Shown here one piece after another: positions 8,838 to 48,160 of a stretch of 64,000 nt of DNA. The position numbers were made by a program, and so were the translations under genes. Within the stretch, counting starts at the first letter, position 1; every line of letters starts with the position of its first letter. This DNA comes from Ilex aquifolium (taxonomy: Eukaryota > Streptophyta > Magnoliopsida > Aquifoliales > Aquifoliaceae). Below the pieces are notes generated by a model. It worked only from the letters and a program-made list of their open reading frames with translations, was not told where the DNA came from and searched no databases. The stretch is taken from the NCBI GenBank assembly GCA_951799425.1, contig OX637394.1, positions 36,368,001 to 36,432,000 on the forward strand. The letters run 5' to 3'.

Positions 8838-10545
8838 CGAATCAACTTTGGCCAAGAACTAAAGTCGATCTACGGGACGAGGGCTACGACTACGTACCAA
8901 AAATCTTGGATTTCACCAAAGTTTCAAAGACGGGATTTTTGGAAATCAAGGTTTAAGGTTTGATTTGGGTCTTGGGAGCTTTCTACAACTTGTATTATGC
9001 TCCAAGAGGTAGGGTTCTTTTCCTCACTAGGTTTATTTCCAACCTAGGGTTAATATATAGAATGGGTAGGGTGTTAGAGATGTATTCTCATGTATAACAC
9101 CTACCTATGGTATTTGAAATGTGGGAAATGGGTATTAAGAATGGTTGAAATCAATTCTAGCATGAATTGGGTATATAGAAATTACTTGTTGTGATTTCTT
9201 GAGAAATGAGGTGATTTGGGGCATATTATGTGATACATGATTTTTTTTTTGCCTTGAAGGTGTTTGATTAAATGCCTATGTGGATTAAGTTTGTTATTTT
9301 CATAGATTATGTTATAACATGCTTGGAATTTGATATTGGGAAGACCCGGTTACTGGTTTATACACTTCCGCTGGTGAAAGTCCAAAAAAAGTGTATCGGT
9401 GTCCGGAACCAGCGGTGAAACACCAAAATCCCGCTACCCAACAGAGACACATGGTTTATTTTAAAAGGTCATTGGATGTGTAAAATCAATGTCGGGAGCT
9501 TGGAATGTCCGGATTCATACGCATGACATTGCATGTGTTAAGGGAGCCAGTAAAGGCTTGGCTTGAGTTGCATGTGTGAGTCTCATCTCATAACATGTCA
9601 TAAATAATCCATTATGAATTGCATATTCTTGAATGGATTATTAGTTGCTTGTTGAATTTGCATGTGAACATTTCATATGCATCTATGTTGGGGAGTAGCC
9701 TATTTAGGAGATATCCTATTGAGCATGGCTCACCCTTTATGGGGACAATATTTCAGGTACGGGACATGCGCCAGTGGACAGCTCTCACTCGGGCCCTCAT
9801 TGTTGAAGAAAAACCGAAATGTGGCTTTAAATCATGTTTTTGTAAAACTAATATGTTATTTAGTTTTTGGACATGTAATATATGTAAAAAAAAAAATTGT
9901 TAAAGAACTCATATGAACTGTATTTTGTTTAAAATTGATGTTATATGAGTTTGGGACGATGTTTTATAAAGTTGGAATGGATTGGAATTGGAAAATGATG
10001 GAATCGAGGGAAAACTGGGAAGACCTACCGATAGAACGATGAGCTCTTCTGCCGGTAGAACTTTTCCAGTAGGCATCTTCTACCGGTAGAACGTCGAGCC
10101 TTGTCGGTAGAACATTTCCAGTGAGTTTCCCTACCAGTAGAACGTTGATGTTCCTACCAGTAGAACGTTTCCAGTAGGCTTTTTCTACTGGTAGAACTTT
10201 GAGTTCTTCTACCGGTAGGTTTTGTTCAAATCTCAAAATTTAAAATGTTTGGCTAAGCCTTCGGGTCTTAGGTTCTTTTGTTCAAATGATATAAATGGAC
10301 AATAAATAAGAGTCAATTGATGTATATTGGACCTTGGATGGGTCATGTGATCGAAATGTACACATGTTATGCGTTTGGGAGTGCCCGGTACAAGGGAGAC
10401 ACTACCCAAACTCCGTGTTGTTTGTGATCTCAGTAAAGGTGATGTTGTGTCGGGGTGTCAGGTTATGAGACATTCATGGGTATTTCCGCGGGTTGATGGG
10501 TGATCAACGGGTCGAAAAAGGACCCCCGATTTTAGGGGCATCACA
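8838..10545 (+). repeat. C3: 5'-truncated Tekay-type LTR fragment
   Basis: Matches solo LTR C2 from about 31809 to its end (GTTCGTCGAATC..., CGACGAGGGCTACG, TTCAAGAGGTAGGGTT, ...TTTTAGGGGCATCACA). About 515 bases of the 5' part of the LTR are missing; the break abuts the F LTR fragment. No TG...CA pair or target duplication can be assigned. A palindrome array lies near its 3' end. Confidence 0.85.
10025..10225 (+). repeat. Palindrome array in C3 (CTACCGGTAG type)
   Basis: About eight copies of the 10-mer CTACCGGTAG and decayed forms (CTGCCGGTAG, CTACCAGTAG, CTACTGGTAG). Most are followed by AACGT or AACTTT and separated by TTCCAGTAGGC-like spacers. Same type and same LTR position as the array in C2. 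Confidence 0.9.
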
Positions 10546-10614
10546 GAAAAGGAGAACCAGAGAGAGATCTTGAAGTTACTTGGGAGGAGATACGGTGGTG
10601 GCCCATTGTCATAA
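10546..10614 (+). pseudogene. F envelope-position ORF, C-terminal remnant
   Basis: Twenty-two codons then TAA. The reading has a polar Q-x-EIL-x-LL segment followed by Gly-rich residues, which resembles the C-terminal end of the A ORF in its alternative frame (EAKQDEIL then Gly-rich). It directly follows C3, so C3 probably interrupted this ORF. Function unknown; the match is short. Confidence 0.4.
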
Positions 10615-11622: not shown

Positions 11623-13160
11623 GTGATTAACCCTAAAAAGTGTGTAAATGAATTAGGGTTTAGGGTTAATAAGGTGCATTAATTGAATTAAAATTTTTAG
11701 TTTAAATTGTATTGTGAATAATGTTTAATTTGTATATTTTTTAGGATTTCGTACGTAATTACAAGAACTTGGAAGAATAAAAGTGCGGAAGATGAACAAA
11801 AGAGGGAGGAAAGAATAAATTCAGCAAAAGACATGCACCATCCGGATGGTAAAAAACCATCCTAATGCCAGCAGAGTCAATAAGTCAACAAAGGATGCTG
11901 CATCCACAAAATCCAGAGACTTTATACTGTCTGGATGGTGGCCTAAACTGCCTCAACCGCTCCTCTTCTCCTACTGGTCCAATTGTGCAATAAAAGGCTC
12001 TAATTGGGTGATATGGGTATCTGTCACCTTGCACTGTCCCCTGGAGCCTATAAATAGGCTTGTTCCATCATTTTGAATGAGATTTTTTCCAAAGAAAGAA
12101 AGACAAAGTTAGAGAAGAAGAAACTCTGCTCTAAACACTTCTAAGCCATAAATTCTCTTCTTCTATATTTATTTTACATCCTTTTTACTTGGAGGGTTGA
12201 ACTTCTCTCATTTTTGTGCGCTAGCTAGTAATAAGAGTAAGGGTGTTTCAACTTTTTCTCGGGAAAGGATTTCTTGCATTGGTTTTATATTTACGTTGTA
12301 TTGTATTGGGATTATCTTACCCTTCTAGCTTGTCTATAGCAATGAAATATGAGTAGTCCATTTATACTCTTCAGTAAAGGGTGAAGACAAATGTAATGCT
12401 ATTTGTGTTATGAAAATGTCGATGTATTACCTATGCTTTAATGTCTATACCTCCCTTAATTGATGGATGATTTTTATTTCCGTTCGGTGTCGTATTACTA
12501 TATGCTCATGGTTACGAATACTGAGCTGAACTTATTGTTATATAATAGTTCATCTATAACTTATTACATACTTCATGCATGATCCAATGATGCACGTAGT
12601 TGAGATTTATGTTACAATTGGGAGATTAGTTATAGTCGGGTTAAATTTTTCCATAGCCAATGTTTTTGATTCAATGCATAAACCGAAACTCCGTCTTCAT
12701 TGAATTATCGACCTGCCAATCGAATATCTAAAGTAAACCTTTTAAATGGTTCACCTTCGGGTTTAGTAGGGTTATTTGGTTGTTGTACGGTGCATAGACC
12801 TTCCAGCTAACCTAGCCAATTGTTGTGATATGGTTCAATCTTTACATTAAACTTACCAGTTAACTTTCGTGAAATATGGAAGTTAATTGATGTAAGGTGG
12901 CATTTTCATAATCAAGCAATAAAATGCATGTTGGATCCCTGAAATAAAGAGTAGTCTTTTCAATTGTTGTAATCACAAGTTTAGTTTAAATATTTGTTTG
13001 TCAGCTCTAAGCTCACAATACAAGCTGTTGTAACGCACATTATGCGCACGACAATCTTACCTTTTTCTATTTTGAGTTCCTGCAGATAGCTTCTAGTGGG
13101 TTCAACCTTGGACTTAACCGAGTAATATTACAACTTGACCACTTATACTTGGTTGTATGA
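11623..13160 (+). repeat. F 3' LTR (Athila type)
   Basis: Begins TGATTAACCC, like the D LTR. Upstream of a TATA box (TATAAATA, 12049-12056) it has one perfect 14-base palindrome ACCATCCGGATGGT (11837-11850) and decayed copies near 11856 and 11930. Its end aligns with other Athila LTR ends (GGACTTAACCGAG..., CTTGACCACTTA). The right boundary near 13160 is approximate because the usual ATCA end is not seen. It interrupts the G envelope-position ORF. Confidence 0.8.
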
Positions 13161-13907: not shown

Positions 13908-15361
13908 TGATGAGAACATAATATTACATATTTTAGGTCTCATATCATTCATCTTAGCTATGTTAGCTATTTATTTCCCTTTTTTAGTTTAGTTTTATAT
14001 TTTATGTAGAATAATCGTGGTTATAGATGAATTAGTGTAAAAGCAAGGTTTTGCACACATTTTAAAGCTATGGAGGGCTTGGAGGATGAGTTAGGAGATA
14101 CACGAGTCAAGCAAAGGGCATTGAAAGTATAATTCAAGAAAAGGTCAGTGCTACCGGGAAGTCTTCTATCGGTGCAACAAGTAAAATTATATTCTACTAG
14201 TAGAAGTTCATTCCTACTGCTAGAAGTTAAACAGAGACCTTTGTTACCTGTAGGTTGGTAATTTTCTGTCGGTAGGTCTTAAATAGAAGTTTGCTCTACC
14301 AGTAGCTAAGAAGAGCTACTAGTCCGTGGAACATAGAGAGTAATTCTACTGGTAGATCGTTTTGTGCTTTTTACCGGTAGGTTAGTGTTTTCTACGGCGA
14401 GTACTCTTTTGGAAAGCTAATCTACTGGGATTGAAAAGGCCATGATTGGTGGATTAAAACAGGGGATATTCAACAGATGTTCTCCTATAAATACTCAAGC
14501 CTAACCTGATAGAAGGGAGACCAAAAATCATTGTTCAATCCATCGTTCTTCAGATGTTATTTCACCTAGGTTTAGAATTAGGGTTTCTCCTTTTCAAGAA
14601 TTTTCTCCATTTTTTTCAATTCCAAGCTTTGTTCTATTTCTAGTTCTTAAATTCTTGCAAAGTGATTACTTCTAATTCTCTTTGGTGAACGATTTATTTT
14701 CTTTGCAATTTAATTCAAGGTAATTTCTTTTACTCGCAATTTCAATTTAAGTTTATTTCTTGTTCAATTACAATAATGTTTTCTTTAATTACTTTTGTTT
14801 TCAATTTCATTATGAGTGAGTAGTTGTTTTTGGGTTTGATCGGATGAGGGAATCTCATCCGTGAATGGGGATTTTGACCTAAATTAGGGTTTTCAAAGAA
14901 TGAGTTATTTGGTTGTTTGAATAATTAAAGTTGAAAACACGTTCGATATTTATATCTTCTTACTTACCCGTAGACAGTTAAGTCTCGCACGGGTAATTCT
15001 TGGAATCACTATAATCGATCTGAATATAATTCTTTCAAAATTAGGTCAAATAATTTAAATACACAATTGTTACACTTGAGTGCGTTTGAGTACAATTTTG
15101 AGTGAATTATAAAGTTTGGGTCAAAATATCTATTCATGGTGAGATGAACATTGCCGAATAACTAGTCTTTTCTTTAATTGTTATTCCTTAGTTGATAAAT
15201 CCTTCAACCAATCTTCCAAAAATTCTGAGTTTTTATTTTTCTTTGGTAATCACCTTTTCAAACCACTCGTTTTCCTTGAGGAGATGACCTTGGTAAATTG
15301 ACGGTAATCTTCCTATGCTTGGGAAACCTTTGATATTTTACTCACCTTTGAGACACAAGCA
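13908..15361 (+). repeat. R4: G 3' LTR
   Basis: Starts TGATGAGAACATAA and ends ...ACACAAGCA. The end matches the terminus inferred for R2, whose plus-strand left end TGCTTGATTG is ...CAATCAAGCA in LTR sense. It shares CTTGAGGAGATGACCTTGG with R1-R3. It holds a palindrome array (14155-14395) followed by TATAAATA at 14486-14493. Length 1454 bases, shorter than R1-R3. The right flank TCTGG is element B. Confidence 0.8.
14155..14395 (+). repeat. Palindrome array in R4 (CTACCGGTAG type, decayed)
   Basis: Copies include CTACTAGTAG, CTACCAGTAG, CTACTGGTAG and TTACCGGTAG. Few keep the central CG. The array ends about 90 bases before the R4 TATA box. Confidence 0.8.
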
Positions 15362-16683: not shown

Positions 16684-16980
16684 AAAAAAATAAAAAATTC
16701 GACATAGTCTCCCCTAAAACAAGGGAACATCCATAAACCAACCATAAAACAAGTTATCACACATCAAAAATGAAAAAAAAATTAAACAAAAAAATAAACA
16801 TAGTCTCCCCTAAAAATAGGAACATAGAAATCTATGTACCTGTTTAATATTTTAACAAAACATTCATAAATCATCCATAAAACAAGTTACGACACATCAA
16901 TAATGAAAAAAAAAATATCGACAGAGTCTCCCCTAAAAGTAGGAACCCAAAAATTTATGCACATGTTTTACATTTTAACA
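16684..16980. repeat. Intronic minisatellite in the mobile-domain pseudogene
   Basis: About two and a half units of roughly 115 bases, each with AGTCTCCCCTAAAA, AGGAACA and an ATCCATAAAACAAGTTA block. It lies between two exons of the mobile-domain pseudogene and has no coding potential. Confidence 0.75.
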
Positions 16981-18889: not shown

Positions 18890-19350
18890 TTTGAGGGGTT
18901 TTGGGTGAAAATGTGGAAATTCCAATCAGTGAAAAGTGAGAAAAGTGGATGAAAAAAGGGATTGGGTGGACAAGTTTGATGATAGAATGAATGGGTAAAG
19001 GTTTTTCTAGGCTTGGCTAGGTTTTCCGAGACCTAGGGTATGAGTTTTGAAGGCTAGGATTTGAAAAATTAAGTGGAGGGGGCATTTCTAATTTTTATAC
19101 CCCGACACAATATGTTCGGATGAGGTTTTGCGTTCGAATGCCAGTTAATTTTTTTTTTGAATTCATGTTCGAACGTAGGTTGCGTTCGAGCCCCATTAGC
19201 TCTTAGTATCTTGTCTTTGACAAAACTTCTCAAACTCCTGAGATGCTATAACCAAAGGGCGTTCGAACGCCAATCCCCAAACAATTTTTTTTTCTTTTTT
19301 CAAAAATCTTTTTCTTTTTAAGGAAATATGTAAAATTAATATTTTTAAAA
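18890..19350 (-). promoter_or_regulatory. Leader/promoter of the mobile-domain pseudogene with GTTCGAAC palindromes
   Basis: On the minus strand: palindromes GGCGTTCGAACGCC (19258-19271), ATGTTCGAACGT (19165-19176) and decayed copies near 19131 and 19182, then a TATA box (TATAAAAAT, 19091-19099), then a CA/CT-rich leader of about 220 bases to ATG 18873. The layout parallels the leader of the A envelope-position ORF (43711-44169). Confidence 0.65.
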
Positions 19351-29082: not shown

Positions 29083-30898
29083 TGCTTGATCATTTTCCCT
29101 AACTTCCAACTTAAATCCGATTGTGTGTATATGGCTTATAGAGATTGGTGAGTGTCACTCTCCATCGAGTTCAATGCAAGAACTGGAGAAATTATGTGTG
29201 GATAAACAAAAACGTGTGTGTGTGCAAAAGTGCTCTCCAAGCGTTTGGAGATTTGCAATGTCGTGTTTTACTTGGAATGAGTATTCCAATGTCGTCTCCT
29301 CAGGGAAGGCGAGATTAGGTGTTTTTTAAGAGTGATTTGTGAAAAAATGAAAATTGAAAAATCTTATGAGTTAAGAAATATGCAAGAAAGCAAGGTTGGC
29401 TAATCCATAGAGGTCATTCCAATGGGAATGCCAAATTGATTCATTTCATTCAGCCGATGGTGTCTCGGTGTTTGATTGATTCGTAGGAAGCGAGAGACTA
29501 ATGTAGTTGTATTGGACAAGAGCATACCCCGTGACAAGTCTACCGTGTATCAAAAGCCCACAACCACGTCCGCACTCAGCCTAGTCAAACCAAACACTTT
29601 ACACTACGAGGAAGAATGGAAGAGAGTCGATTTCACATACCCAAGAGGAAATCCATCTTGGATTAACCAACTAAAAGTTTAGCTATGCATGGTAAAAGCA
29701 AAAGCAAACATGAAGTAGATAAACATGGTAATGAAATCAAGCATGAACTTGTATTAGTGTAAGAAGGAGTTTAAACTACAAGAGAAAAAACATTCATTTC
29801 CAAAATGTAAAGCTTGAAGGGAACAAAAACCAAATTTAGAAATGAACCAAAAGAAAACTTAACTAAACTTAATTACAACTTGATTAAAAGAGATTAAAGT
29901 GTAAGAGGGAAAGATTACAATTAAAATGGAGCTTACTATAATGAAAATAGTGAAGGAAAATGTAAAACCTAGCTTTCTCTCTTATAACTTCATCTTCTAC
30001 CTTGAACCTTATCTCTCTAAAACTTTGATGATCTGAAATTGTGTGAAGGAAGTCTGTATTTTCATCCATCCCCCTCTCTTTTAGCATGAGTGGCTGACTT
30101 GGAGCGATTGGAGAGAGATTGTCCACAAAAGCTTCCAAAATCAGTCAAAGTATGGTCCTCCCATGCTTTTCCAACCATTCCCTCTCTGTACATTGGCCAC
30201 CCACTCCCTCATGCTTAAAATCTGAATGTAGGGGTTAGGAGATCATCATAGAGTGTTAGAAATGTCAGAACATGGATTAGGTGACAAAAGGTGGGCCCCC
30301 GTAATTGGTGGAGTCGTTTGGAGAAGGATCTGGGTTTTCTAGGCATCTGCTACCGATAGCTTGTAAGTCTCCTACCGGCAGCTCATTTCTAGTAGGGTCT
30401 TCTACCAGTAGGTCTTGTAGGGAGGCACTGGTAGCTACTTTCCAGTAAGCTCTTCTACCGGTAGCTCAGGCAAGTCTTATATTGGTAGCTCATTTCCAGT
30501 AGGGTCTTCTATCGGTAGCTCATAAGGCTCCTAATGGTAGGTCTTTCAGGGAGGCACTGGAAGCTACTTTCAAGTAGGCTTTTCTACCGGTAGCTCAGTT
30601 AGGTCTTCTACCAGTAGCTTATCTCCTTGTCTTGAAATTCTTGATTCCTTGAGTTCCCGAGCCATCCATCATATGAGATCCTTTCTTCCCCATAGACCTC
30701 GATCATTTTCAGCTTATAATGTTCCCGAGCCATCCATCATATGGGGTTCTTTATGCCTACCATTTTCAGCTTATCACCTGCAATCAAGCCAATCTCCATT
30801 AATTATCAATTTGAATCCATTTCCCCAAAAATTCACTGTAAAACAAGTTAAATTGGATGCAATGAAGATGCTTAAAATGCAATGTTCCACACTCATCA
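29083..30898 (-). repeat. R1: H 3' LTR
   Basis: In LTR sense it starts TGATGAGTGTGG (30898) and ends ...ATCAAGCA (29083). The end is set by alignment with R2, whose left end is fixed by a target duplication. It contains a palindrome array (30349-30620) and CCTGAGGAGACGAC. Short ORFs in it have no family. Confidence 0.85.
30349..30620 (-). repeat. Palindrome array in R1 (CTACCGGTAG type)
   Basis: About a dozen copies of CTACCGGTAG or decayed forms, most followed on the plus strand by CTC. Spacers include ATTTCCAGTAGGG and TTTCCAGTAAGC. A tandem duplication of about 115 bases is visible inside the array (GGGAGGCACTGGTAGCTACT and GGGAGGCACTGGAAGCTACT). Confidence 0.92.
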
Positions 30899-31293: not shown

Positions 31294-33904
31294 TGTAAAA
31301 CCCGGGTAAATTTAATTTTTTATGAAAAATGACAAAACGGTAATTAGCCACTACGTTACGGGTTGAAAACCCAAATTTTTCTAGAACTCTAAGGATAAAA
31401 CAGACCTCCCCATTGGATTCGTTTTGCGAAATCTAGTTACCCAGTCAATTTTTTTTTAATTTCGAGACAATCAAATTTTTTACGTTTTACGAGGCGATCA
31501 GGTGTCGCATGACCTATATAAACAAGACCAGGAATTAAATTTCAAAAATTAGAAAGTAATTTAAATTTAGTTCAAATAAAAATATTTTGAACTTGAACCG
31601 GGATGAAATTTAATTCATTCGGAACAAAATCGGACCCGGGAAAGGTGAACGTGTGGCGCAACGATGGTCAAGGAAATGAGGAGTATAAAAAGGGGGAAAA
31701 ATCAGATTTTTCCCCCATAATCTCAACTAGGTTTTCCAAAAAAGAGAGGAGGGAGAAAGAAAGAATAAAAAATAAGATCTTCAACTTCTCTCTACGATCT
31801 ACGGTCTTCCGTTCGTCGAATCGACTTGGGCCAAGAACTAAAGTTTATCTACGCGACGAGGGCTACGCCTACGTACCAAAAAAGTATGGATTTTGACAAA
31901 GTTCAAAAGATGGGATTTGGGGAAATCAAGGGCTAAGGCTTGATTTGGGTTCTTGAAGGCTTCTACTACTTGTTTTATGCTTCAAGAGGTAGGGTTCCTT
32001 TCCTAATTAGGTTTATTTCCAACCTAGGGTTGATATATGAAATGGTTAGGGTGTTAGAGATGTAATCTCATGTATAACACATACCTATGTGATTTGAAAT
32101 GTGAAAAATGGGTATTAAGAATGGTTAAAATCAATTCTAACATAAATTGAGTATGTTGAAATTACTTCTTGTGATTTCTTGAGAAAAATGATGATTTTGG
32201 GCATATTATGTGTTACATGATTTTGTGCCTTGAAGGTGTTTGATGAAATGCCTATGTGGATTAAGTGTGTTATTTGCATTGATTATGTTATAGCATGTTT
32301 GGGAGTTGATGTTGGTCTATGCATTATGATATATTGACATTGAGGTTGTTGACGGTGATTATATGGTTATGATGTAATTGACCATGAAAAATATTGATGG
32401 ATATTGAATTTGTTCATAATGTGATCATGATATATTGAACTTGATATTGGAAAATGCAATGGTATATTACATTTGCATATATGCACAAGAAACATCGCAT
32501 TCGTGGTCATATGACATGAGTATGGGTGTGTGTGCACGGTTTGATCAAACACCATTCTTGGTGGATGATATGTGGGCTCGGGAAAGTTGGACCAAGGTTC
32601 AATTGGGTTGCATTGAAAATAGGGTCGGGTTTAGCAAGAAGAGTTAGACTGTCCCTCGGGTACAAGACCCGGTGAATTTGGATACACACTCCATTGCTAT
32701 CGAGTCCATAAAGTGTGTCGGCGTACGCGGAGCCGTTGGTGGAAGTCCGTAAATGTTGTGTCGGTTGGGTGCTCGTTGGTGTAAGTCCATGAATACCCAC
32801 CCCAAGAAAGACCTGAGAATTTTAATAGTCATTGGATGTGTATCATCAATGGCGGGGGCTTGGAATGCCCGGATTCATACACATGATATTGCATGTGTTA
32901 TGGGAGCCGGTGAAGGCTAGGGTTGAGTTGTATGTGTGTGTCTCATCTCATATCATGGCATGACATAGAGAATTCCATTATGAATTGCATATTCTTAAAT
33001 GGATTGTTGTTGATTGTTGAATTGCATGTAAGCATTTCATATGTATCTAGGTTGGGGAGTAGTCTCTTTAGGAGATACCCTATTGAGTGTGGCTCACCAT
33101 TTATGGGGACAATATTTCAGGTGCGAGACATGCGCCGGTGGATGGCTCTCACTCGTGCCCTCATTGATGAAAAAAAGCAGGGATGTGGGCATGTAATGTT
33201 ATGTAAAACTATTATGTTATTTAGTTTTTTTTGGGCATGTAATGTTATGTAAAGAATTGTAAAAGAACTCATATGAACTGTATTTTTGTTTAAAATTGAT
33301 GTTATATGAGTTTGGGTTGATGTCCTATGAGATTGGATGTGCTGGAATTGAAAAGGGATCGAATCGGGGAAAATTTGGGCACTCCTACCGGTAGAACATC
33401 GAGTACCTACCAGTAGAATAATTCCAGTAGGCATTTTCTACTGGTAGAACGTCGGGTATTTGCCGGTTGAAGAATTCTAGTAGGTTTTTCTACCTGTAGA
33501 ACATCAAGAACCTACCAGTAGAAGTATTCCAGTGATTTTTTCTACCGGTAGAACATGGACATCTTCTACCGGTAAGTCCCCTTTAGTTTTCGAAAATTCA
33601 AATGATCTTGATAGGTCTTCGGGCCTTAAGTCTTTTTGCTTCAAGGAGATACACAGAGTAATATTCAGAGTAAATTGATGTATATTGGGCCTTGGAAGGG
33701 TCATGTGATTAAAATGTACACAAGTTATGCATTTGGGGAGTGCCCGATATAAATGAGACTCTGTCCAAACGCTATGTTGCTTATGATCCCGGTGAATGGG
33801 ATGTTATTACCATGGTGTTGGGTTATGTGATACTCACAGGTACTTCCGCGGGTTGATGGGTGATCAATGGTTGATAAAGGACCCCCAGTTTTAGGGGCGT
33901 CACA
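31294..33904 (+). repeat. C2: solo Tekay-type LTR
   Basis: TGTAAAACCCGGGTAAATTT...GGGGCGTCACA, 2611 bases, about 420 longer than C1. The excess is mostly a segment with a CTACCGGTAG array (33385-33580). Flanks TGCTG and AGCTA match at three of five positions, which may be an aged target duplication. Confidence 0.9.
33385..33580 (+). repeat. Palindrome array in C2 (CTACCGGTAG type)
   Basis: CTACCGGTAG (33385), CTACCAGTAG (33407), CTACTGGTAG, CTACCTGTAG, CTACCAGTAG, CTACCGGTAG and CTACCGGTAA, mostly followed by AACAT or AACGTC. Spacers include ATAATTCCAGTAGGC and GTATTCCAGTG. The decayed forms are those expected from CpG deamination, except CTACCTGTAG. Confidence 0.93.
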
Positions 33905-35055: not shown

Positions 35056-35534
35056 CAAAACCAAAAATGCCCCTAGGGCTAAGAATGGGAACAACCATCC
35101 CCAAAATAACTCAAAAACACCAAGAGATGAAGGTGGAGACTTACCCATTCTAGTCATTGTCCAAAAATCCAAGCTGTGAGTGAAAATCATGGCTTTTGAT
35201 GAATTTACTGATGTTTTGTGGAGAGGAAAGGGTTTTTGAAAGGAAGGAATTGAGGGAAGTGAATAGAAATCAAAGCTTGAAGGAGCAAAACGATGAAGAT
35301 GGAGGATGCCCAAGTGGAGGTTTGAAGGGTTTTGAGAGAGGAGATAGTGTTTTTGAGATGGAGGGAAATGATAGAAATGAAAGGTTTTTCCGAAAAAATG
35401 GGTTTAAAACCCTTGTTTTTGCTAATCTAGGCATGAGCTACTGGTAGCTCGTGAGGCTGCCAATAGTTGTTCCATCCATTTTTCCAGCCATTCTGCTAAG
35501 AGCTATCGGTTGCTCGTGATGCTTCTATCAGTAG
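35056..35534 (-). promoter_or_regulatory. Leader of the H envelope-position ORF with CTACCGGTAG-type palindromes
   Basis: Minus strand, upstream of ATG 35055. A CT-rich leader of about 350 bases is preceded by decayed palindromes in 35432-35534 (plus strand GAGCTACTGGTAGCTCGTGAGG, CTATCGGTTGCTC, CTATCAGTAG), with the CTC extension seen in R1. TTTAAA near 35405 is the only TATA-like site. Element A is inserted at 35535, inside this array. Confidence 0.6.
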
Positions 35535-35710
35535 TGATTAGTAGTTAAAATTAGCATATCACTATGCCTTTTTAAGACTAATTATACTTTGATGGAGTTT
35601 AAATGATGACATTTCAGGACATAAATTATACAAGGGACCAAAGGCAAACTTTCATGCAACATCAGCACATTCTGGAGCAAAATTGGATAAAGCTTGGACC
35701 AAGGCAAGAA

Positions 35711-36086
35711 CATTCGAACGCCAATCCACGTTCGAATGTTCCCTTGAATTATTCGAATACCATACTGCTGAGACATGGCGTGTTACAGATGAGAAGAAAT
35801 ACATTGAAGTACTTGACTACCACGTTCGAACGCCCACTCACGTTCGAACGTTCTCCTCCACTATTAAGAACCAGGCTAATGAGTGCAAAGGTAGTGGTTC
35901 AAAGCTTGTGGAAGTAGATCTCCAGAAGACCACATGCCACTTGAGTGGGAAGATCAGACCCCATCTGGCGTTCGAACGCCCATCTAGCAAAGACAGAAGC
36001 AACGTTCGAATGCCAGACAACGTTCGAACGCCCATCTAGCAAAGATAGAAACAACGTTCGAACGTCAGACAACATTTGAACGTTGT
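35711..36086 (+). repeat. Palindrome array in A LTR (ACGTTCGAACGT type)
   Basis: About ten copies around GTTCGAAC, including the 14-base perfect palindrome GGCGTTCGAACGCC (35967-35980) and ACGTTCGAACGT (35840-35851, 36054-36065). Two copies are separated by the repeated CCATCTAGCAAAGA spacer. The 3' LTR start repeats the first two copies (49296-49329). Confidence 0.95.
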
Positions 36087-36206
36087 CCCCAGACAGGCTG
36101 CAGAGTGGTTGATCTTCTCTCTAGACATTGGGACTTTCACTTAGATTTTCAAGGCCTTGTACTATTCCTCCACACTACCTTGCCCCCCACCCCCTTCCTC
36201 CTTGCC

Positions 36207-36214
36207 TATAAATA
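36207..36214 (+). promoter_or_regulatory. A LTR TATA box
   Basis: TATAAATA in a GC-richer context (CTTGCCTATAAATACTC). Equivalent boxes: 12049-12056 in F, 14486-14493 in G, 50908-50915 (minus strand) in D. Confidence 0.75.
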
Positions 36215-37500
36215 CTCTCATTGTGGAAGCTTCAAGGGAGCTTAGAGCTTGGAGTTGGGTTGCACTAGACCAACATTTTCTTACTTTGTTAGTCTTAGAC
36301 TTAGGTTTTCAATTACATGCATAGAGGGAGATAAATTACTTTTGGTTGTGGATCAACCCTCCAAAAGTGACTAGCCTTGTTCTACTTGCAATATTTGTTT
36401 CACTCAATTCCATGTCTAGAAGAAAGATAGATCGTCTTTTGGTTGCGGATCACCCTCCAAAAGTGACTAGCTTTCTTCTACTTTCAATGTGTTTCATTCA
36501 CTTCCATTGCTTGAGCTTCTTTATTCCCTCAGAGGAGTGAAACTCTTCCACTTTTCTAGAGCTTCGTCAAAGCCGTGAAGGGTGGAACGTGATTCACTCA
36601 TTCTTTGTCAAAGATCGGTTCCTTTTTTATTGTGCCTTACCTTGTAACCCCTCTACTTGGAGGAATGAGCATCACTCATTTTTCTAGCTTTACCAAAGCC
36701 ATGAGGAGTGAGTAGTTTCTCATTCACTCTTTAGTAAGAGGTGATGGATATGTATAAATTATCCGGAAGTTATATCTATGCATTTTTTATTATGCTTAAT
36801 ATTTTATATTCCCCTTTCTTATTGAATGATTGATTGCATCTAGCAAAGCTAAGGTACTTTGTATAACCGTGAGTACTTTCTATAACTTAGATAACTCTTG
36901 CATAGAAAGACTCATCGGTTCAAGGCAAGTATCCCGGCTAGATCTTCATGACTACCCTTCTATCTTCACCATTATTGTGCTTCAAGTAAAGAATGGAAAT
37001 CGAACATTAATGTCATGGTTGGATGCCTTGTAGAAACACTTTCTTGTTTGTAGACATGTTGAGTCTCGGCACAGACAATTCTTGTAAACTTCTAGAAAGA
37101 CATCAGAATCATATTCCTAATTCTCACAATCCACCTTTATCTTCCGATTAACTTGTTGTTGACACGGGGGTTAATTGAGTTATGAAGCACAAGTATAATA
37201 AAACGGATGATTAATTACATGTCTAGATCCTTGAACTAAAGAGTGACCTTTTTACATTTGAACTTATCTTATATTTTGTCTAGAAAACCTTCTTGGAAGG
37301 AATTCTATATTCTGTCCAGGAAATCCCATACACCACACAACTTCAAAACTCAAGATTTACAATCATTTGGTCTCCACCACTGCTTACTTTGAAACACCAA
37401 CAATAGTTCCATGTGGATTCGACTCTGGACTTAAACCGGATTATTACTACAGCTTGACCGCTGCACTTGGGTGTACACATTTCGGATCAAGTTAAGTTTT

Positions 37501-37628: not shown

Positions 37629-39575
37629 ATGTCTAAGGGCACTCCTCACTATCAAAATTTGTCGACAGAATCTTGTGAGTCTATGAATCAGCCTGAACCA
37701 TCTTCACCTAGATCAGTAGCAGACTCTTGTGAAAATAGTATGGCAAATAATGAGAAACAAGGAGAAGTTCCTATGAGAGAGGGGGAAGTGCCTAACATTC
37801 GAACTTTGCGGGATTACTTAAATCCCACAAGAAATAGTGTCCCCTCTTGTTTTGTATTTCCTGAAAATGCTCCCCTCTTTACTATAAAGTAGGGGACAGT
37901 GCAGCTACTACCTGTATTTCTTGGGTTAGATGCAGAAAATTCATATCTGCATATAAAAGATTTTGAGGAAGTATGTGGAACATTTTAAGACAATTCTGAA
38001 CTGGCCAAGATGAAACTTTTTCCTTTCTCTTTAAGGGACAAAGCTAAACAATGGTTAAATTCTTTAAAAGCTCTTTCAATACCTAACTGGCAGGCATTAC
38101 AAAATGAATTTTTCAGAAAGTTTTTTCCTCTACACCGCACAAATGTACTCAAAAGGCAAATCATGAATTTTTCAGTTAAAGAAGGAGAAACATTTTACCA
38201 AAGTTGGGAGAGATTCAAAGATCTTCTCCAATCCTGCCCACACCATACTTTTGAGAATTGGACTTTGGTAGGATTTTTTTATGACTCCTTGCCCACTAGA
38301 CTCAGTTTTTCGAAATGATGGCCCAATGAGAGTTTATGGGTAAGAGTCTGGAGGAGGCATTCAATTTTTTTGACACCATATCTGATGGTTCTCAGATGTG
38401 GGACTCAGCCTCTCCTACCACTGTTGAAGCAAGACCGTCTACTTCCCAAGGGGGTAAGTATGTCTTGAAAGAAGATGATGACCTAAGAGCAAAAATTTCC
38501 ACCCTATCTCGAAAGCTTAAAGCTTTAGAGATGAAAAATGTCCATCAAGTTGATGTTGGCCCTCCCACAGAACAAGTGTGTAGGATTTGTGCCCTAACAG
38601 GAGACCCTACTGGGGAGTGTCCTACCATTTCGGCGTTCAAAGAGGTCTTGTTGGAACAAACAAATGCAATTTCCAACTTCAACAAGCCCTACTCCAACCC
38701 ATATTCTGAAACATACAATCTAGGGTGGCGGAATCACCCGAACTTCAGTTGGAGGAACACACAACCAACTCCTATGAACCAACAACAAAGTTCACAACCA
38801 CTACCTCAAGGACCTCTTGCGTATCAACCATACCAACCACCACACAAAAGGAGCCTTGAGGAGACACTGAACTAGTTCATGCAAACCCAAATGAACTACA
38901 ACACCCATTCCACATAGGCTTTCACCGATTTCAAAGCACAGACCACCCAGTCTTTCGAGGATATCAAAAGTCACATTCAAAAATTGACCCATCCATGAGC
39001 ACACACGAGAAGGGCAAATTTCCTGCCCAACAAAACCTCCACAAGGCCAATTTCATCTGGGAAATCCTTCAATCATAAAAACCCCGCAAGACCAAGCCCA
39101 AGTATTCACTACACTAAGAAGTGGCAAGGTGATTGACAAAACAATCATAACCATGTTGATTCCAAGGCCAAGACCTGAGTCAATTCCATGCCCTGAACCA
39201 GTTGGGCCTGAACCTATGATTCAGCTTGAACCAGTTGAGCCTGAGCCTATGATTGAACAGGATTCATAATCATCAAAGGAAAAAGAACCTTCATGCCCTA
39301 TTCCTATTCCTTTCCCTCGTAGACTCAAAACAATCCAGAAGGTAAGCAACCAGCCAGAAATTTACGAGCTTTTTAAGCAAGTAAAGATCAAAATCCCACT
39401 TCTGGATGCAATCAAACAAGTTTCGTCTTGTGCCAAGTTTCTGAAAGACTTGTGTACGATCAAGAGAAGCCAAAATGTCCAAAAAAAGAGCTTTCTTGAC
39501 AGAACAAGTCAGTGCCTTACTTCAACACAAAACCCCTTCAAGGACCCTAGATGTCCAACCGTGTCGTGTGTCATT
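37629..39575 (+). pseudogene. A gag and protease-region remnant
   Basis: Start ATG 37629 (MSKGTPHYQN). The retrotransposon gag core is at 38010-38318 (KLFPFSLRDKAKQWLNSL, FFRKFFPLHRTN), followed by a coiled and Gln/Pro-rich part with a C..C knuckle-like segment (CRICALTGDPTGEC). Stops at 37890-37892, 37986-37988, 38316-38318 and 38873-38875, plus a frameshift near 38320. The frame then reads family-typical linker (LLDAIKQVSSCAKFLKDLC) and stops short of the protease active site, where a deletion joins it to integrase. Confidence 0.85.
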
Positions 39576-41231: not shown

Positions 41232-43081
41232 TGCTTGATTGTTTCCGTTGTATTCCCAATTGTCACATAAGAACCCTCAATGTGTGTATGGCTTATATGT
41301 GTGGGTGAGTGTCACTCTCACTCGGGTTCAAATGCAAGAAATGGGAAACGGGATGATGTGGTGTGAAATGAATGAAATATGAACAAAAATGCTTCCCAAG
41401 CGCAAGAAGACTTTTGCCTATCGTGTTTTACTTGGAAAAGTATTCCAAGGTCGTCTCCTCAGGGAAGGAGGTCGAGTTGTGTAAATGTGATTTTGTGAAA
41501 AATGAAAAGTGTAAAATCTTGTAGTTGGTTTGAGTTTTGTGATTTGTGTTTTTGCTAAAACAAATAAAAGGAAAACAAGTGTTGGCTAATCCAAAGAAGT
41601 CATTCCAATGGGAATCCCAACTTAACTCGAAACCTTCCTCCAATGGTGCTTAGATGAATGATTGATTCTTGGGAAGCTAGGGACGAGATGGAGGTGAGGA
41701 TCCAAGCATAACCCGTGGCCAGGCCTACGGGATATCAAAGACTCACTACCACATCCACTCTTTACCCAGTTAAACCGAACCATCGTACACCGAGAGGAGG
41801 AAAGAAAATGAGTTGAAATGGAAAACCCAAGAGAAGGTCTCCCTTGAATTACCCAACTAAAAATCTAGCTACTCACGAAAGGAAGAAAGAAATGCATAAT
41901 GTAAATGGACATAATGAAGAAATGAAACATGGAACTTGAACCAATGCAAGAAAAATTAAACGATGAAGAAAAATATGCAATACCCATTTTAAAGCTTGAA
42001 AATGAAGAACTTGAAAGCATTAATGGTAGAATCTAGAATACTCAACTAAACTTGCAAAGCACTTGAAGTAAATGACATTAAAAGTAAATAATGAAGCTTA
42101 CAAGAGTATTCAAGAAGATTACAACTGAAAATGGATGAAGGAAATGCAAAAATCTAATCTAAACTATGTCTTCTCCCTTGGATTTTTCTAAGCTTAGGTA
42201 GTCACCTTTCAAAATCTTGTGGAATGCTGAATATATGGTGAAGGAGTGATGCATTTTCGTCCATGAGGGGTCCCCTAGCCTGTGTGTAGGCCTCCCATCA
42301 ATGGGAGGTGAGTTGATTGGCTTGGCAGGCTAGGAAAAGACTAGCCTGCAGCTCCTCTGGCTCACCCTTCCTCTCCCATCCTCATTAATGTCATTGCCTC
42401 CAAAGTCTTCCACTAGAGTGTAGAAGACATGTATATATGTAAGGGATGTCAGGGGATAAGTGGGAGAATCAATGGTGGGACCCCCAAGCAAGTGGAGCAT
42501 GAGTTGCAGGCGTTCTGGGTATTCTAGGAAAAACTATCCAGAAGGTTTTTGTCAACCTTCCGGAAGGTCGATTCCAGTAAGAAAAACCTCCCGGAAGGTC
42601 TTTCGGAAGGTGACAGCTCTAGACTAGTTTTGGTAAAATTGTGATAACTTTTGATCCAACTGTTGGATGGAGCTGAAATTTTGACACAATACATAAGACA
42701 CCTATATATACAACTTTCATGTTTTGCACTTTGTCAGATTCGAAGTGGATCATGGTCAAAAATTGGAAAAACATCGGTATTGTGTCAAAACCTTGGGAAA
42801 CCAGTGGGCCAAACCTTCCAGAAGGTTTTCATCCAAATTGTTTTTTTCATGGTTTCTTCACTTTCCAAGCCTCCCAATCCTCATTTAATGTGTCCATCTC
42901 TTCATCACTCATCCATACTTAGTTGCAAGGTTATAAAATCCATCATTTACGCTATAATTACATGCAACATCAAAATTTCCACATTATTCAAAACTTCAAC
43001 TAACTCTAAATAATTAAATGCAAAGTTAAGTTAAAAAGCATGAAATGAGGCCATTAAATATGCAATGTTTTGTGCTCATCA
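41232..43081 (-). repeat. R2: solo LTR inserted in A, with target duplication
   Basis: Plus-strand ends are TGCTTGATTG (41232) and CTCATCA (43081); in LTR sense TGATGAGCAC...CAATCAAGCA, 1850 bases. A perfect 5-base duplication GTGAT flanks it (41227-41231 and 43082-43086). Same family as R1, R3 and R4. It carries palindromes of the TTCCGGAA type at 42555-42568, 42586-42599 and 42813-42826. No internal region remains, so it is a solo LTR. It interrupts the Cys-rich ORF of A. Confidence 0.9.
42530..42826 (-). repeat. Palindromes in R2 (ACCTTCCGGAAGGT type)
   Basis: ACCTTCCGGAAGGT (42555-42568) is perfect; ACCTCCCGGAAGGT (42586-42599), CTTTCGGAAGG (42600-42610) and ACCTTCCAGAAGGT (42813-42826) are decayed. 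The spacer GATTCCAGTAA follows the perfect copy. Confidence 0.88.
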
Positions 43082-43426: not shown

Positions 43427-44169
43427 ACTATTTTCTAAACAAAACTGGGAAAAATTGTGTTTTGGGGATGAAAAGCCAAGGGTCTGAATTTTTGTAAAAT
43501 GTATAAAAATCTTTTTTTTTGTTAAAAGTACAAACTCTTTTGACTGAAATGAAAACATGGGCCAAGTAAGGAATGTCCTAGAATAACCAACCTAAAGCGT
43601 GGGTAGGGACTTATCCTGAGACGCCATGAATTTTTTGTTCAAACTTGTGTATATAGCACTCTCTTATAGTGTATATTAATGTGCAGAAAAACTTTTGATT
43701 TTTGATCTGACATTCGAACGCCAAGTAACATTCGAATGTTGCTTGCTTGCAGTACTCAGTCTCTGATGAAGCCTCTGATAGAAAAAAAAAGTACTAGGAG
43801 CTCATCACGTTCGAACGCCAATAGAACGTTCGAACGAGAAGAGCTTACAGTACTTTGGTCTCTGACAGAACTCAAAAGTACTAAGAGCTCACCACGTTCG
43901 AACGTCAGTAACGTTGGAACGATCTATTTAAAATCCTTCTACACACGTTCGAACGTCAACTCTCAGGCTATAAAAGCCTGGTTCGTCTTCTCCATTCCAA
44001 AAACCCCAAAACCCTAGGGCGATTTTTCACTACTCAACCCTCAAAACACCACCCATTCTCCATTTCTACCTAAAATCAACCATCTCAAAGCCATTCCCAC
44101 ATCAAAAATCCTCATTCTCACAAGAAAATCAAGTATTTCAAGCCCTAACATTCCCAAATCCGAAAAACC
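43427..44169 (+). promoter_or_regulatory. Internal promoter/leader of the A envelope-position ORF
   Basis: Non-coding. It contains an array of GTTCGAAC palindromes (43711-43956), then a TATA box (TATAAAAG, 43969-43976, in GGCTATAAAAGCC), then a CA-rich leader of about 190 bases to ATG 44170. The array is of the same type as in the A LTR. It also contains two tandem units of about 85 bases (AGTACTCAGTCTCTGAT and AGTACTTTGGTCTCTGAC). Confidence 0.7.
43711..43956 (+). repeat. Palindrome array before the A envelope-position ORF (ACGTTCGAACGT type)
   Basis: Seven copies: 43712, 43728-43739 (ACATTCGAATGT), 43807, 43825, 43894-43905, 43910 (ACGTTGGAACG) and 43945-43956. Two keep the longer CGAACGCCAA extension seen in the LTR array. 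Confidence 0.95.
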
Positions 44170-45219
44170 ATGCCTCCAAGAGTCAAGCTCCCTGCTAGGC
44201 GCAACCCACTGAGTCAGGAGCCTAATATGGTGGAAGAAGTCATCGAGGAGAAAGAGGGGAGACCCATTATGCAGAGATATGATCAAACCCACTTCCCCAC
44301 TGTGCTCAAGGCAGACAGGTATGAAAACTTTTACCAAAACCATGTTGTGGTATGTGAACGTGATATGGTATTGGTTGATTTTGCTGAATTGGGTATTTTG
44401 GAGAATTTTGAGAGAAGGGGGTGGATATTATACATGAGAAACGACGGAGAAGCCGTGGTTGACTTGGTGCGGGAGTTCTACTCCAACGCCGAGATCATCA
44501 ATGGGGCAATTATAACGTGTGTGAGGGGAGCCCATATTGATGTGTATGAGGAGTATATCCGGGAGTTGAGACAAGAGATGCCTCGGGTGCCAAGGCCAGC
44601 CTATCCCCCGAGGAAGAACGTGGCGATGAATGTAGTTGGGGCAGAGCTAACGGGGATCACTAATTTTGCTTGGGCAGGGCGGAGATTTCTCCGACAAGGG
44701 GAGTTAATCGATAAATATAAAATGTTGAATTTAATTGCAGTTTCAAACTTCACCCCAATCGGACGAAAGAACGAAATCCTCCCCGAGATGGCCCGATTGC
44801 TCTACGCACTTAGGAAAGGCCAAAGCATAGATCTCCCCTCCCTAATTTTGACTGAGATGAAGAATGGATGTGACATGAAAAGAAGCTCACTTCTTTTTGG
44901 CACTGTGGTAACGGAAATGTGCAAAGACCACGGGATCAGGGTAAGTCCTGAGATGAATATCCAAAAGCCAATGGGACCACTGAACAAGGCTTCCTTCCGG
45001 AGTAGCCAAGGACATAGTGGTGCCCCTGCGGCTAGACAGGAGGAGCCCCCTACCCGAGGAGTCGACGAGGTGCAGGATGAGCTCGATGAGGAGGAGGAGA
45101 GAGAGTTAAATGCTGAGAGAACCCAGGGGCAGCCAGAGGAGGAGGCAGGACCCGGCACCCACTTAGAGATATCATGCTTAGCATCGAAGCTAAGCAAGAT
45201 GAGATTCTTCGCATTCTGA
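44170..45219 (+). CDS. A envelope-position ORF (plant putative transposon protein)
   Basis: ATG 44170, 349 residues. Basic N-terminus (MPPRVKLPARRN), then a globular part with LVREFYSNAEI (about residues 98-108), GELIDKYKMLNLI (about 178-190) and QSIDLPSLILTEM, then an acidic low-complexity tail (DELDEEEERE). Same family as the D ORF and H ORF; resembles the plant 'putative transposon protein' domain. A frameshift near 45160 probably changed the original C-terminus: the adjacent frame reads SIEAKQDEILRIL and stops at 45240-45242. No signal peptide or membrane span is seen, so an actual envelope function is not supported. Confidence 0.8.
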   Translation: MPPRVKLPARRNPLSQEPNMVEEVIEEKEGRPIMQRYDQTHFPTVLKADRYENFYQNHVVVCERDMVLVDFAELGILENFERRGWILYMRNDGEAVVDLVREFYSNAEIINGAIITCVRGAHIDVYEEYIRELRQEMPRVPRPAYPPRKNVAMNVVGAELTGITNFAWAGRRFLRQGELIDKYKMLNLIAVSNFTPIGRKNEILPEMARLLYALRKGQSIDLPSLILTEMKNGCDMKRSSLLFGTVVTEMCKDHGIRVSPEMNIQKPMGPLNKASFRSSQGHSGAPAARQEEPPTRGVDEVQDELDEEEERELNAERTQGQPEEEAGPGTHLEISCLASKLSKMRFFAF

Positions 45220-45242
45220 GAGGTGGAGCTGGTGGAGAGTGA

Positions 45243-46150
45243 GAGAGAGATTGTTGTTCTTGAGTGGAGTATTTGTTTCTTCTTTTCATGGATGAGCTTC
45301 TTCTGTTATGGGTTGTTGTGGATGTTTAAAAGTTTTTGTGTGTTTTGTTGCTTCTTTGGTTGGATGAATTGAATCCTTGGTGTTTATGTTAAAACAATCA
45401 TATTTTGTGAAATGAATGATTCATTTTATCACTTTCATCTTTTTAAATTCATGTGTAGAATTAGCATGACATTGTTATTTGTTAATAAATGATGGAACAA
45501 ATGTGGATTTTGAGACTGTTTGTTAAAGTGACTAATCACATGATCGGTTTGACACATAACTTAGCAATCTAGACTTAAAACCACAGATCCTTGAAAAATG
45601 ATATTTTCTCTATTCTTAAAATATTAAATGTACATTGGTATTTGTTATTCTTAAGGTACAAGATGACCAAACTTGAAAAAGGAACTGATATATAACCGAC
45701 ATCCCTTGAGAAACCTGACATAACTAGTGGAGATGACGAAAAGTATCATGGTAAGTTTCAAGCCTTGCGATACTTCTGAGAGATAATCAACATTTACTCA
45801 AGTAAGGTCTTTCACTTCCAATTTTTGAATAATCTCATTAAAATTGTTTTGATTAACGCAACTAAGGTGATCTATTGACATATCCCACAAGAAATCTGTT
45901 CATGCGACACATATGCACATATTTGAGAAAGGATTTTAGGCCATCATTGACTTAATTTTGAGCCATAAGCCATTTCTTTTACAAAATTATATCACTAGTT
46001 AGCCGAGATTGAACCTTTAATGCACTATTTATTTTCCAAGTAACCCATATAATTACCAAGCCACAAGAAAGTATACTTGACATACATTTGCTATCCAATT
46101 TTCTTGCATCCTCTTATAAATCAATATGACACAGAAATGCAAGGGAAAAA
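45243..46150 (+). other. A 3' untranslated region, first part
   Basis: AT-rich, no credible ORF. Segments match the D 3' UTR in order (for example AATTTTCTTGCATCCTCTT and CAAGCCACAAGAAA), which shows common descent. R3 interrupts it at 46151. Confidence 0.7.
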
Positions 46151-48160
46151 TGATTGATTGGTAATTACGTCGTTCCTAACCTCTAAACATCACCCTCACC
46201 CTCAATGTGTGTATGTGGCTTATAGTGATGGGGGAGTGTCACTCTCCCTCCGGATGATGCAAGAAGATAGGAAACAACAACAAAATGGATGTGAATGGAA
46301 ATGTGATGAACAAAATAGATGGAATGAGATGCGGTGTGCACAAAAATGCTCCCCAATCGAAAGGAGTCTTTTGTGATCGTGTGTTTTACTTGGAAAATAT
46401 TCCAAGGTCGTCTCCTCAGGGAAGGAAAGGGAGTTTTGTGAAAGTGATTTTGCAAAAGTGAAAAGAAAGTGTAAAATCTTGTATTTGTATTTTGGTGAGT
46501 TTTGTTCAAAATGAAAATGCAAGAAAGCAAGTGTTGGCTAATCCAAAGGGTTCATTCCAATGGAAATACCAAATCAACTCAAAGCCTTCCTCCGATTGAG
46601 CATGAATGAACGATTGATTCGGGGGAAGCTAGGGACGAGATTGGTGAGTATCTAAGCATAAACCGTGACTAGGCCTACGGAATATCAAAGGCTCACCAAC
46701 TCATCCACTCTCAACCCCGTCAAACCGAACCATTTGACTCTAAAGGGAGGAATGAAGAAGATTTGAACATGGTATTCCCAAGAGGAATTTTCCCTTGGAT
46801 TAACCAACTTAAATCTAGCTACTCATGCTTGAAAGGAAAGACATTAATGTAAATGGAAGACATGTAGAAGAAATGAAGCATGAAACTTAACTAAATGCAA
46901 GAAATCTTAAACTAAGAAGAAAGAAATACAATACCCAATTTAAAACATGAAAATGAAGAACTTGAAAGCATAAATGGTGAAATGAAGAACATGTAATTAA
47001 CTTGCAATATACTTGAAATAAAAGAGATTACAATGTAAGAAATGAAGATTACAAGAGGAATGTAGCTTACAGCAATGACATGGATGAAGAAAATGCAAAA
47101 ACGAAATTACTATTCATCATTTTCAACCTTGGAGCTTTCTACATCTACTCCTAAGCTTAGGTAGCCAACCTCTCCTCTAAAACTATATCCTCCCCTACAT
47201 AATGAATGAATACCCCCTCAAGGAGACTCTTGCTTTCCCCCCAAAACGTGCCTGGAGAGAGAGGGAGGTCTACCGAGTTGATCTCCATCACTAGGGGTGC
47301 AGCAACATGGGCTGGACAGGGGGTGAGGCAGAGCTGTCTGCTCACCCAGCTTCCTTCTTCTTCTCTCTCTTCATTAATTATCAAGACTCATCCAAATCAA
47401 TGCAGGGGTGAGGGAGGCTCCAGGATGTGTAAGGGATGTCAGGAAGCATGTAGGAGAAGTGCATGTGGGACCCTCCAAGCCGCAAAGTTGAGTTACAGGC
47501 TGTCTGGAGAAAAGTGCAAAAACCTTCCGGAAGGTCGACATACACCTACCAGAAGGTTGCTGAAAGAACAGTTAAATGAAAAGAATCAAATGCAAGAACT
47601 TCCGGAAGGTCGACATCAGTAGCAAAAATCTTCCGGAAGGTTCATTCCAGTAGCCAAAACCTTCCGGAAGGTTCATTCCAGAAAACAAAACCTTCCGGAA
47701 GATTTTGGCAGTCAAAAAGAAACCCAAGGCAAAACCTTCCGGAAGGACCATTCCAGTAGACAAGTCCTTCCGGAAGGTTTTACTCCAGTAGCTAAAATCT
47801 TCCGGAAGGTTCATTCCAGTGGACAAAACCTTCCGGAAGGTATTAGCTGTGAACAAGGCATCCAGGGTTTTTAGCAAAACCTTCCGGAAGGCCGACATAC
47901 ACCTTCCGGAAGGTTTTCAGACTGTGAGCAAAAATTGGATTTCTTTCCCCTCCAAACCATCCTTAAAGCTACCCCATACACTCCATTAGCCTCATATAAC
48001 ACCATGGGGGTTTAAATCATGTCATTTACATCATTTTACATGCATTCACCCAAAATTCCATCAAGCCACAATCAAAACCAAAACACTCCCATTTATTGAC
48101 GAAAAAGGTGAAACAAAAGCACATTAGCACACCATACATGTCATTGTTATGTGCTAATCA
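46151..48160 (-). repeat. R3: LTR inserted in A
   Basis: Plus-strand ends TGATTGATTGG (46151) and GTGCTAATCA (48160); in LTR sense it starts TGATTAGCAC. About 2010 bases, aligned with R2 along most of its length. No second LTR or internal region, so a solo LTR. Flanks AAAAA and AAAGG do not give a sure duplication. It contains the richest palindrome array of the window. Confidence 0.85.
47522..47914 (-). repeat. Palindrome array in R3 (ACCTTCCGGAAGGT type, 11 copies)
   Basis: Eleven perfect copies of CTTCCGGAAG and one decayed CCTACCAGAAGG (47545-47556). Many are extended to ACCTTCCGGAAGGT. Spacing is mostly about 30 bases with a recurring spacer TTCATTCCAGTAG. Apparent ORFs with repeated FRKVL are translations of this array. 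Confidence 0.97.

Follow-up and report, generated by a model that had tools for sequence, protein, structure and literature searches.

Arrays of CG-centered palindromes in the long terminal repeats of Ty3/gypsy-like retrotransposons of Ilex aquifolium: candidate U3 enhancer cassettes shared between element families

The 64-kb stretch of the Ilex aquifolium genome analyzed here (contig OX637394.1, positions 36,368,001 to 36,432,000; hereafter, the window) is part of a large genome with abundant nested, plant-type long terminal repeat (LTR) retrotransposons. Fourteen LTRs of the window were scored, labeled A5, R1-R4, C1-C3, F, Fb and four chromovirus-like LTRs, several of which carry arrays of short palindromes with CG at the exact center. 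Four dyad types can be distinguished: Y (CTACCGGTAG), E (CTTCCGGAAG), A (CGTTCGAACG) and G (GTACCGGTAC). Based on primer site, G-run plus TGTGAT and Pfam domains, as opposed to a tree, the R family would be Athila-like and the C family, together with a related element found elsewhere in the genome (X), chromovirus-like, both being Ty3/gypsy; for R, the Athila-like placement is one that we take from the G-run followed by TGTGAT. The R- and C-family features are as follows.

10025..10218, plus strand: Y array (CTACCGGTAG and CpG-decayed forms) in LTR C1, with a companion box (described below) as TTCCAGTAG at 10064 and 10169, and TATAAATGG at 10290
33385..33575, plus strand: Y array in LTR C2 (LTR about 31290-33904)
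30350..30617, minus strand: Y array in LTR R1 (LTR start TGTGAT after the G-run at 30900)
42557..42609, minus strand: short, decayed E array in LTR R2, where a single companion box precedes the palindrome by 5 nt
47515..47985, minus strand: E array in LTR R3, with 11 exact copies of CTTCCGGAAG
14151..14380, plus strand: degenerate Y-like sites in LTR R4, 8 within two mismatches, with a TATA box 86 bp past 14400; weak as an array
11839..11848, plus strand: single CATCCGGATG in LTR F, not an array

The window contains 12 exact copies of CGTTCGAACG, 12 of CTTCCGGAAG and six of CTACCGGTAG, and 40 CG-centered palindromes of 10 bases overall vs. 6.7 +/- 2.7 (maximum 14) in 30 order-2 Markov simulations. 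Counting the best palindrome of each LTR with at most one mismatch, six of the 14 LTRs bear arrays: R3 (11 sites, type E) and A5 (8) have at least eight palindromic copies, with fewer in R1, C1 and C2 (7 each, type Y) and R2 (4). The other eight have one site (F, Fb and C3), three (R4) or between zero and two (the four chromovirus-like LTRs), and 40 shuffles of each LTR gave at most four sites in any LTR and at most three in the six array-bearing ones. Three families, R, C and A, therefore carry genuine palindrome arrays. The initial annotation of this DNA had also listed F and R4 among the palindrome-bearing LTRs; the former has a single site, at the level of the shuffles, and is rejected as an array, while the three sites of R4 equal the shuffle maximum, which makes it doubtful. 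Its two C-family arrays probably correspond to our C1 (10.0 kb) and C2 (33.4 kb), both of which are indeed Y arrays, and the third C-family LTR (C3, 24560-26750) is array-free. The part of C3 that corresponds to the array holds a 32-bp tandem repeat (26464-26554).

Types E and Y are one base apart, changed symmetrically in both half-sites (CTWCCGGWAG), and are therefore close variants, whereas type A is distinct. E, Y and G contain overlapping CCGG and A contains TTCGAA; none of the four has the CGG-CCG core known from Sireviruses. The spacing of sites is wider than the roughly 20-40 bases initially proposed: 22-53 bp for E in R3, 17-19 bp within and 34-128 bp between doublets for A, and mostly 12-32 bp for G. 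The central CG is intact in 14/15 E, 20/22 A and 14/29 Y sites, and 13 of the 15 altered Y centers are CA, TG or TA, the pattern expected of methylated CG, which speaks only for past methylation of those copies. Protection of the central CG in A was not significant (transitions at 1/22 central vs. 9/44 outer CpG, p = 0.15). The CpG observed/expected ratio was higher in the array than in the remaining LTR for A5 (1.16 vs. 0.34), R3 (0.67 vs. 0.28), C1 (0.93 vs. 0.68) and R4 (0.66 vs. 0.50), with no array enrichment for R1 (0.31 vs. 0.42) and C2 (0.76 vs. 0.77). A TATA box follows the array at 124 bp in A5, 13 bp in the internal A array (below), 86 bp in the R4 region and about 71 bp in C1.

The arrays of R1, R2, R3, C1 and C2 share a companion box, CTACTGGAA (TTCCAGTAG on the opposite strand), which tends to be located 5 nt before the palindrome and bears out the shared spacer core noted initially: TTCCAGTAG is exact in R1, R3 and both C arrays, and R2 has a one-mismatch form, TTACTGGAA, on the other strand. 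With the sense of C1 and C2 taken as that of the array, a palindrome start is present exactly at +14 relative to the box in 12 of 15 modules, and one at -16 or -17 in all 15; in a sixteenth box, in R3, the palindrome is at +15. Across these 15 modules, identity between the R1, R2/R3 and C groups was 85-86% for the box, a value inflated by the box having been chosen by matching, 59-68% for the palindrome, and 20-28%, i.e., chance level, for the 5-nt linker; the linker and spacing figures are unaffected by this choice. Among 48 boxes in 29 further R LTRs of the genome, the palindrome was at 14 in 27. We rejected the idea that TTCCAGTAG is merely a decayed E/Y hybrid: the 16 boxes taken as genuine have a TG, TA or TT center and none has CG (the palindromes themselves being set aside). 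The box may nonetheless descend from such a hybrid, as Fb holds one TTCCGGTAG and X has CG-containing hybrid palindromes. Fb also has, at 50080-50420 (minus strand), two related units with CTACCGGTA and CTACCGGAA, CG intact, which were not scored as an array.

To assess these patterns beyond the window, its own genome (800 Mb) was searched. R1 and R2/R3 share a backbone (68% identity over 741-794 bp) and carry different palindromes, as the initial annotation had recognized, and additional R LTRs revealed the same at much higher identity. With the 898-bp 3' part of R3 as query, 6269 first-look candidates were obtained, of which 40 were scored and 30 (one being R3 itself) typed. These 30 R LTRs have 3' parts 96-100% identical to R3, and the 880 bp preceding that part contained E in 22, G (GTACCGGTAC) in eight and both in none, with 2-12 E or 1-4 G sites per LTR at up to one mismatch. 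Thus, each sampled LTR copy has one main type, the types differ within a family, and different arrays occupy the same place of the LTR. In six of these R LTRs compared further, the 3' part was 95-99% identical, while in the adjoining ~400 bp of U3 (the unique 3' region of the LTR) the 12-site E form aligned with the others over just 67-77 bp; the four-site E form, L040 and the G form shared 78-82% identity, and two copies of one U3 form 96-97% over 399 bp. These alignments indicate that R LTRs are mosaics with an exchangeable U3 and that the difference extends beyond the palindromes. Exchange of U3 segments accounts better than gradual drift of the half-sites for the fast change in specificity proposed initially. 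A small, separate E form occurs in two R LTRs (L043 and L047, about 816-1105 in match orientation), with two E pairs 22 bp apart, about 235 bp between the pairs, and a companion-type box in both orientations.

E arrays are also common to two families. The pattern TTCCGGAAGGTTCATTCCAGT occurred 2405 times genome-wide vs. 0 for a reversed control, and the eight loci returned with this search were all X-type LTRs. Twenty further places, picked from the first 100 listed for spread along contig C1, were on R-type (12) or X/C-type (8) LTRs, with 1-15 exact E sites each and one exact Y among all 20. X is a separate element with matches to gag, protease, reverse transcriptase, RNase H, integrase and SH3_Tf2-1, reverse transcriptase preceding integrase as in Ty3/gypsy, and an TGGTATCAGAGC primer site; no difference was seen between its two LTRs over 1444 bp of comparison, so E arrays are present in a recently moved copy. 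The X LTR is homologous to C1, C2 and C3, and its array is of type E, matching the R3 array at 93.4% over 473 bp, vs. no match between the X and R backbones. On one side, X and C1 can be aligned starting at the border of the array (73% over 105 bp); on the other, their match stops 170-270 bp before reaching it, and alignment in between is weak, so E in X occupies about the same place as Y in C1/C2. The X LTR also establishes the orientation of the C family as plus, so that the C1 and C2 arrays run in their LTRs in the opposite direction to those of X and R; the stretches common to the R1 and C1 arrays are short (54 and 63 bp at 78-80%). When array pieces were placed in a tree, whose basal support was weak (0.35-0.47), ten X arrays, 93-97% identical to the R3 array (the nearest 97.2% over 432 bp), grouped as one clade (support 0.997) among R arrays; this nesting and the nearest match make transfer from R to X the likely direction. 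The sampled copies were neither inconsistent random motifs nor single-copy expansions, and the earlier statement that one type recurs across families with a shared box holds in them.

The third family, element A, carries its dyad both in the LTRs and internally:

35529..37500, plus strand: 5' LTR (A5), with an A array at 35711-36082 (nine sites within two mismatches, four gaps of 18 bp) and the TATA box about 124 bp later
37989..38315, plus strand: gag fragment (PF03732)
43711..43955, plus strand: internal A array of three doublets and one site (seven sites), with a TATA box (GGCTATAAAAGCC) 13 bp after
44149..45216, plus strand: accessory open reading frame (ORF) matching PF20167 (Transposase_32), which immediately follows the internal array
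49118..49331, plus strand: truncated 3' LTR, 97% identical to the 5' LTR over 209 bp, with one A doublet (49298, 49316)
19131..19269, plus strand: additional A-type sites, four within two mismatches, outside both A LTRs

The primer-site motif at 37502 is an exact match to what we take to be the Athila/Tat type. With A placed by this motif and its PF03732 gag, X by its domains and R by its G-run plus TGTGAT, none of these array-bearing elements is a Sirevirus. Eight neighboring pairs of A sites are 17-19 bp apart with varied linkers, a ninth close pair lies at 19 kb, and 18-bp pairs recur in A-type sequence at three other loci (L033, L053 and L058). The internal array is present at two loci: at L073, which is 79% identical to the window overall, all eight A sites are exact and form four doublets (18, 19, 18 and 17 bp), which are followed by the same TATA box and then by a homologue of PF20167 (L030, with 66% identity across 164 residues). 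The PF20167 ORF has no known DNA-binding domain by Pfam, and its predicted structure is poor (mean pLDDT, the predicted local distance difference test, of 41) with no PDB relative by sequence, which says nothing either way on DNA binding. Two protein searches gave one relative each, a scan for related proteins gave six pattern matches, none confirmed, pattern scans of viral and genome contigs gave no matches, and the primer-site pattern hit four contigs of the viral set, which have 64-68% GC and seem to be of bacterial or phage origin. A second uninterrupted PF20167 ORF (53007-54170, minus strand; 388 aa, 60% identical to P0002) has no array in the 59 bases checked upstream. At L053 (1416-1443 and 3540-3783), an array of A palindromes is split in two, apparently by the insertion of an R LTR.

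Taken together, we favor the hypothesis that the arrays are probably exchangeable U3 enhancer cassettes of candidate dimer-binding sites, traded between unrelated LTR retrotransposon families. Under this hypothesis, a cassette is built from repeats of a single perfect dyad (E, Y, G or A), with R and C arrays often adding the companion box at fixed geometry, and would offer clustered sites to a dimeric DNA-binding factor, most likely the host's, that activates transcription at a TATA box close by. The unrelated Ty3/gypsy families (R and C/X) would have exchanged cassettes, probably via template switching between co-packaged RNAs or conversion, the outcome being that a given LTR 3' part can come with different arrays, and a given array with different LTRs. 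In element A, an internal promoter expressing the accessory protein would be preceded by the dyad of its LTRs as well, such that one factor could switch on both this promoter and the LTR. Dyad symmetry and fixed spacing make binding by a dimeric factor, as initially proposed, a reasonable inference, and these features with diverged linkers, the position before the TATA box in some LTRs, the freedom of orientation (C1/C2 inverted relative to X) and the different arrays at one place all fit enhancer sites for such a factor.

Several observations weigh against this hypothesis. The support for binding and enhancer function is sequence-based, the identity of the box is biased by its selection by matching (above), and copies within a family are not independent. 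Further, the central CG is retained in only about half of the Y sites, no TATA[AT]A occurs within 500 bp in R1 and R3, 15 of the 48 additional boxes have no palindrome within 40 bp and six have it at 15 rather than 14. The purity of E vs. Y is incomplete, given that 10 of the 22 E LTRs also hold one site within a mismatch of Y and that all ten X arrays have E/Y hybrid palindromes. In addition, the U3 differs also between two E forms, and thus the swapped unit may be the whole U3; C3 is without an array, implying that arrays are dispensable; and one PF20167 homologue (L032) has no array in the 760 bp upstream.

Alternatively, the arrays might be functionless minisatellites, expanded by slippage and spread by hitch-hiking on recombination. 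Their tandem layout, an E copy number ranging from 1 to 15 and the lack of an array in C3 speak for this scenario, but boxes and spacing persist across families while the linkers are at chance level, and the L073 sites are all exact in a region otherwise only 79% identical to the window. Moreover, a scan for palindromes with at least three exact copies per locus in 50 loci picked through E or R, and for clusters in 60 kb beside the window that were not so picked (one Y and one G), returned E, Y, G and A only, all CG-centered, two-letter palindromes being excluded. Neutral amplification hence seems unlikely. We regard as comparably unlikely a VANC-like anti-silencing or activating system, in which the palindromes of an element are bound by a protein that it encodes itself (for A, the PF20167 accessory). 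At two loci, the dyads of the A LTRs do recur immediately ahead of the PF20167 gene, and a different accessory domain, that of Retand elements (TRP28, antisense ORFs), has been judged probably DNA-binding (PMC11963269); against this stand the lack of a known DNA-binding domain in the PF20167 ORF, the homologue without an upstream array, the sharing of cassettes by the unrelated R and C families, and the VANC motifs themselves, which are not CG palindromes in the available text of PMC5735166. A broader version, in which a small alphabet of CG-centered dyads (E, Y, G and A) would be read by different dimeric factors, families would trade cassettes to regain expression, and A would encode its own reader, PF20167, under the same dyads as a self-activating loop, is in our view quite unlikely.

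It is also conceivable that the palindromes act as RNA or DNA hairpins that feed small-RNA production or shape the transcript, a role that has been proposed in maize Sireviruses; small RNAs have been reported on palindrome-rich LTR regions (PMC5311732, PMC10760457). RNA folding is indeed strong for R3 (z -7.6 and -7.8), A5 (-7.1), C2 (-6.0) and the internal A array (-3.9), yet the values of C1 (-2.8), R1 (-2.8) and R4 (-1.0) fall inside or above the range spanned by two array-free controls (-2.3 and -3.1), good folding is to be expected of perfect short dyads whatever their role, and the fixed spacing to a non-palindromic box is left unexplained, making this reading rather improbable. Finally, the sites could be heat-shock elements bound by heat-shock factor (HSF), as in heat-activated plant elements, ONSEN being an example. 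TTCCGGAA fits TTCnnGAA, and R3 has 12 two-unit sites, including three full TTCnnGAAnnTTC; however, nine of these 12 lack the third unit, three-unit sites are absent from R1, R2, R4, C1, C2, A5 and the internal A array, and the central CG is kept in nearly all E sites although HSF would accept any two bases there. HSF binding thus fits part of E only, is rejected as a general explanation and is highly improbable overall.

Arrays of this kind have precedents, although the initial annotation knew of no description; the comparisons made here rest on the available portions of each source. Bousios et al. 2010 (PMC2829016) tabulated element-specific, high-copy palindromes (RM boxes) in Sirevirus LTRs, most with CG, which, like those reported here, differ between elements and are clustered in the LTR; they lie upstream of the TATA box and also of env, forming CpG islands. 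The internal A array before the PF20167 ORF, an ORF known here by its PF20167 match alone, parallels the copies upstream of env. In contrast, the Sirevirus palindromes are in Ty1/copia elements, were described as specific to Sireviruses within the set of Ty1/copia elements compared and have a CGG-CCG core (PMC2829016), whereas the arrays described here have Ty3/gypsy hosts, are centered on CCGG or TTCGAA, have a companion box at fixed distance (R and C) and are common to unrelated families. Palindromes of maize Sireviruses (CACCGGACNNNGTCCGGTG; cited in PMC10760457 and PMC5311732) similarly form clusters in LTR control regions, are described as fast evolving and have strong predicted folding; unlike here, their small-RNA role was studied. 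As for the VANDAL-like logic initially suggested, VANC motifs (YAGTATTAY, AGTTGTCC/AGTTGTAC; PMC5735166) are likewise short, in tandem arrays in noncoding parts of the element and variable between related elements, but are, in that text, neither palindromic nor CG-centered, and the elements carry a cognate VANC gene with demethylation shown experimentally. The sole accessory ORF seen beside an array here matched PF20167 (no VANC profile was run). New lineages from recombination among distantly related elements are known for Arabidopsis Athila (PMC2410132), although the available account concerns gag, pol, env and LTRs within Athila, with no regulatory arrays and no exchange with another Ty3/gypsy lineage.

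A literature search on palindromes, LTRs and Athila, covering titles and the starts of abstracts, with most subscription papers outside its reach, found no account of these arrays among the matches listed; no paper contained two of the four 10-mers, and nothing relevant was among the matches listed for the motifs plus DAP-seq (DNA affinity purification sequencing). As far as this search goes, the new features are the residence in Ty3/gypsy elements, a companion box at a fixed distance, and cassettes common to different families, while the kind itself is known from the Sirevirus RM boxes. If the cassettes are exchangeable, the LTR promoter would evolve separately from the element body and seemingly independent families would share regulation, in which case elements with the same cassette are expected to be co-expressed whatever their family, and near-identical LTR 3' parts with different cassettes would represent a natural promoter-swap experiment. 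The arrays would also extend Sirevirus-type palindromes to Ty3/gypsy, with cassette exchange as a route for their fast turnover.

Elsewhere in the window, a direct duplication of ~690 bp (16980-18349, 93% identical) lies outside any recognized LTR, and remnants resembling Ty3/gypsy reverse transcriptase, RNase H and integrase (30-37% identical by tblastn) are located at 26824-28721 on the minus strand.

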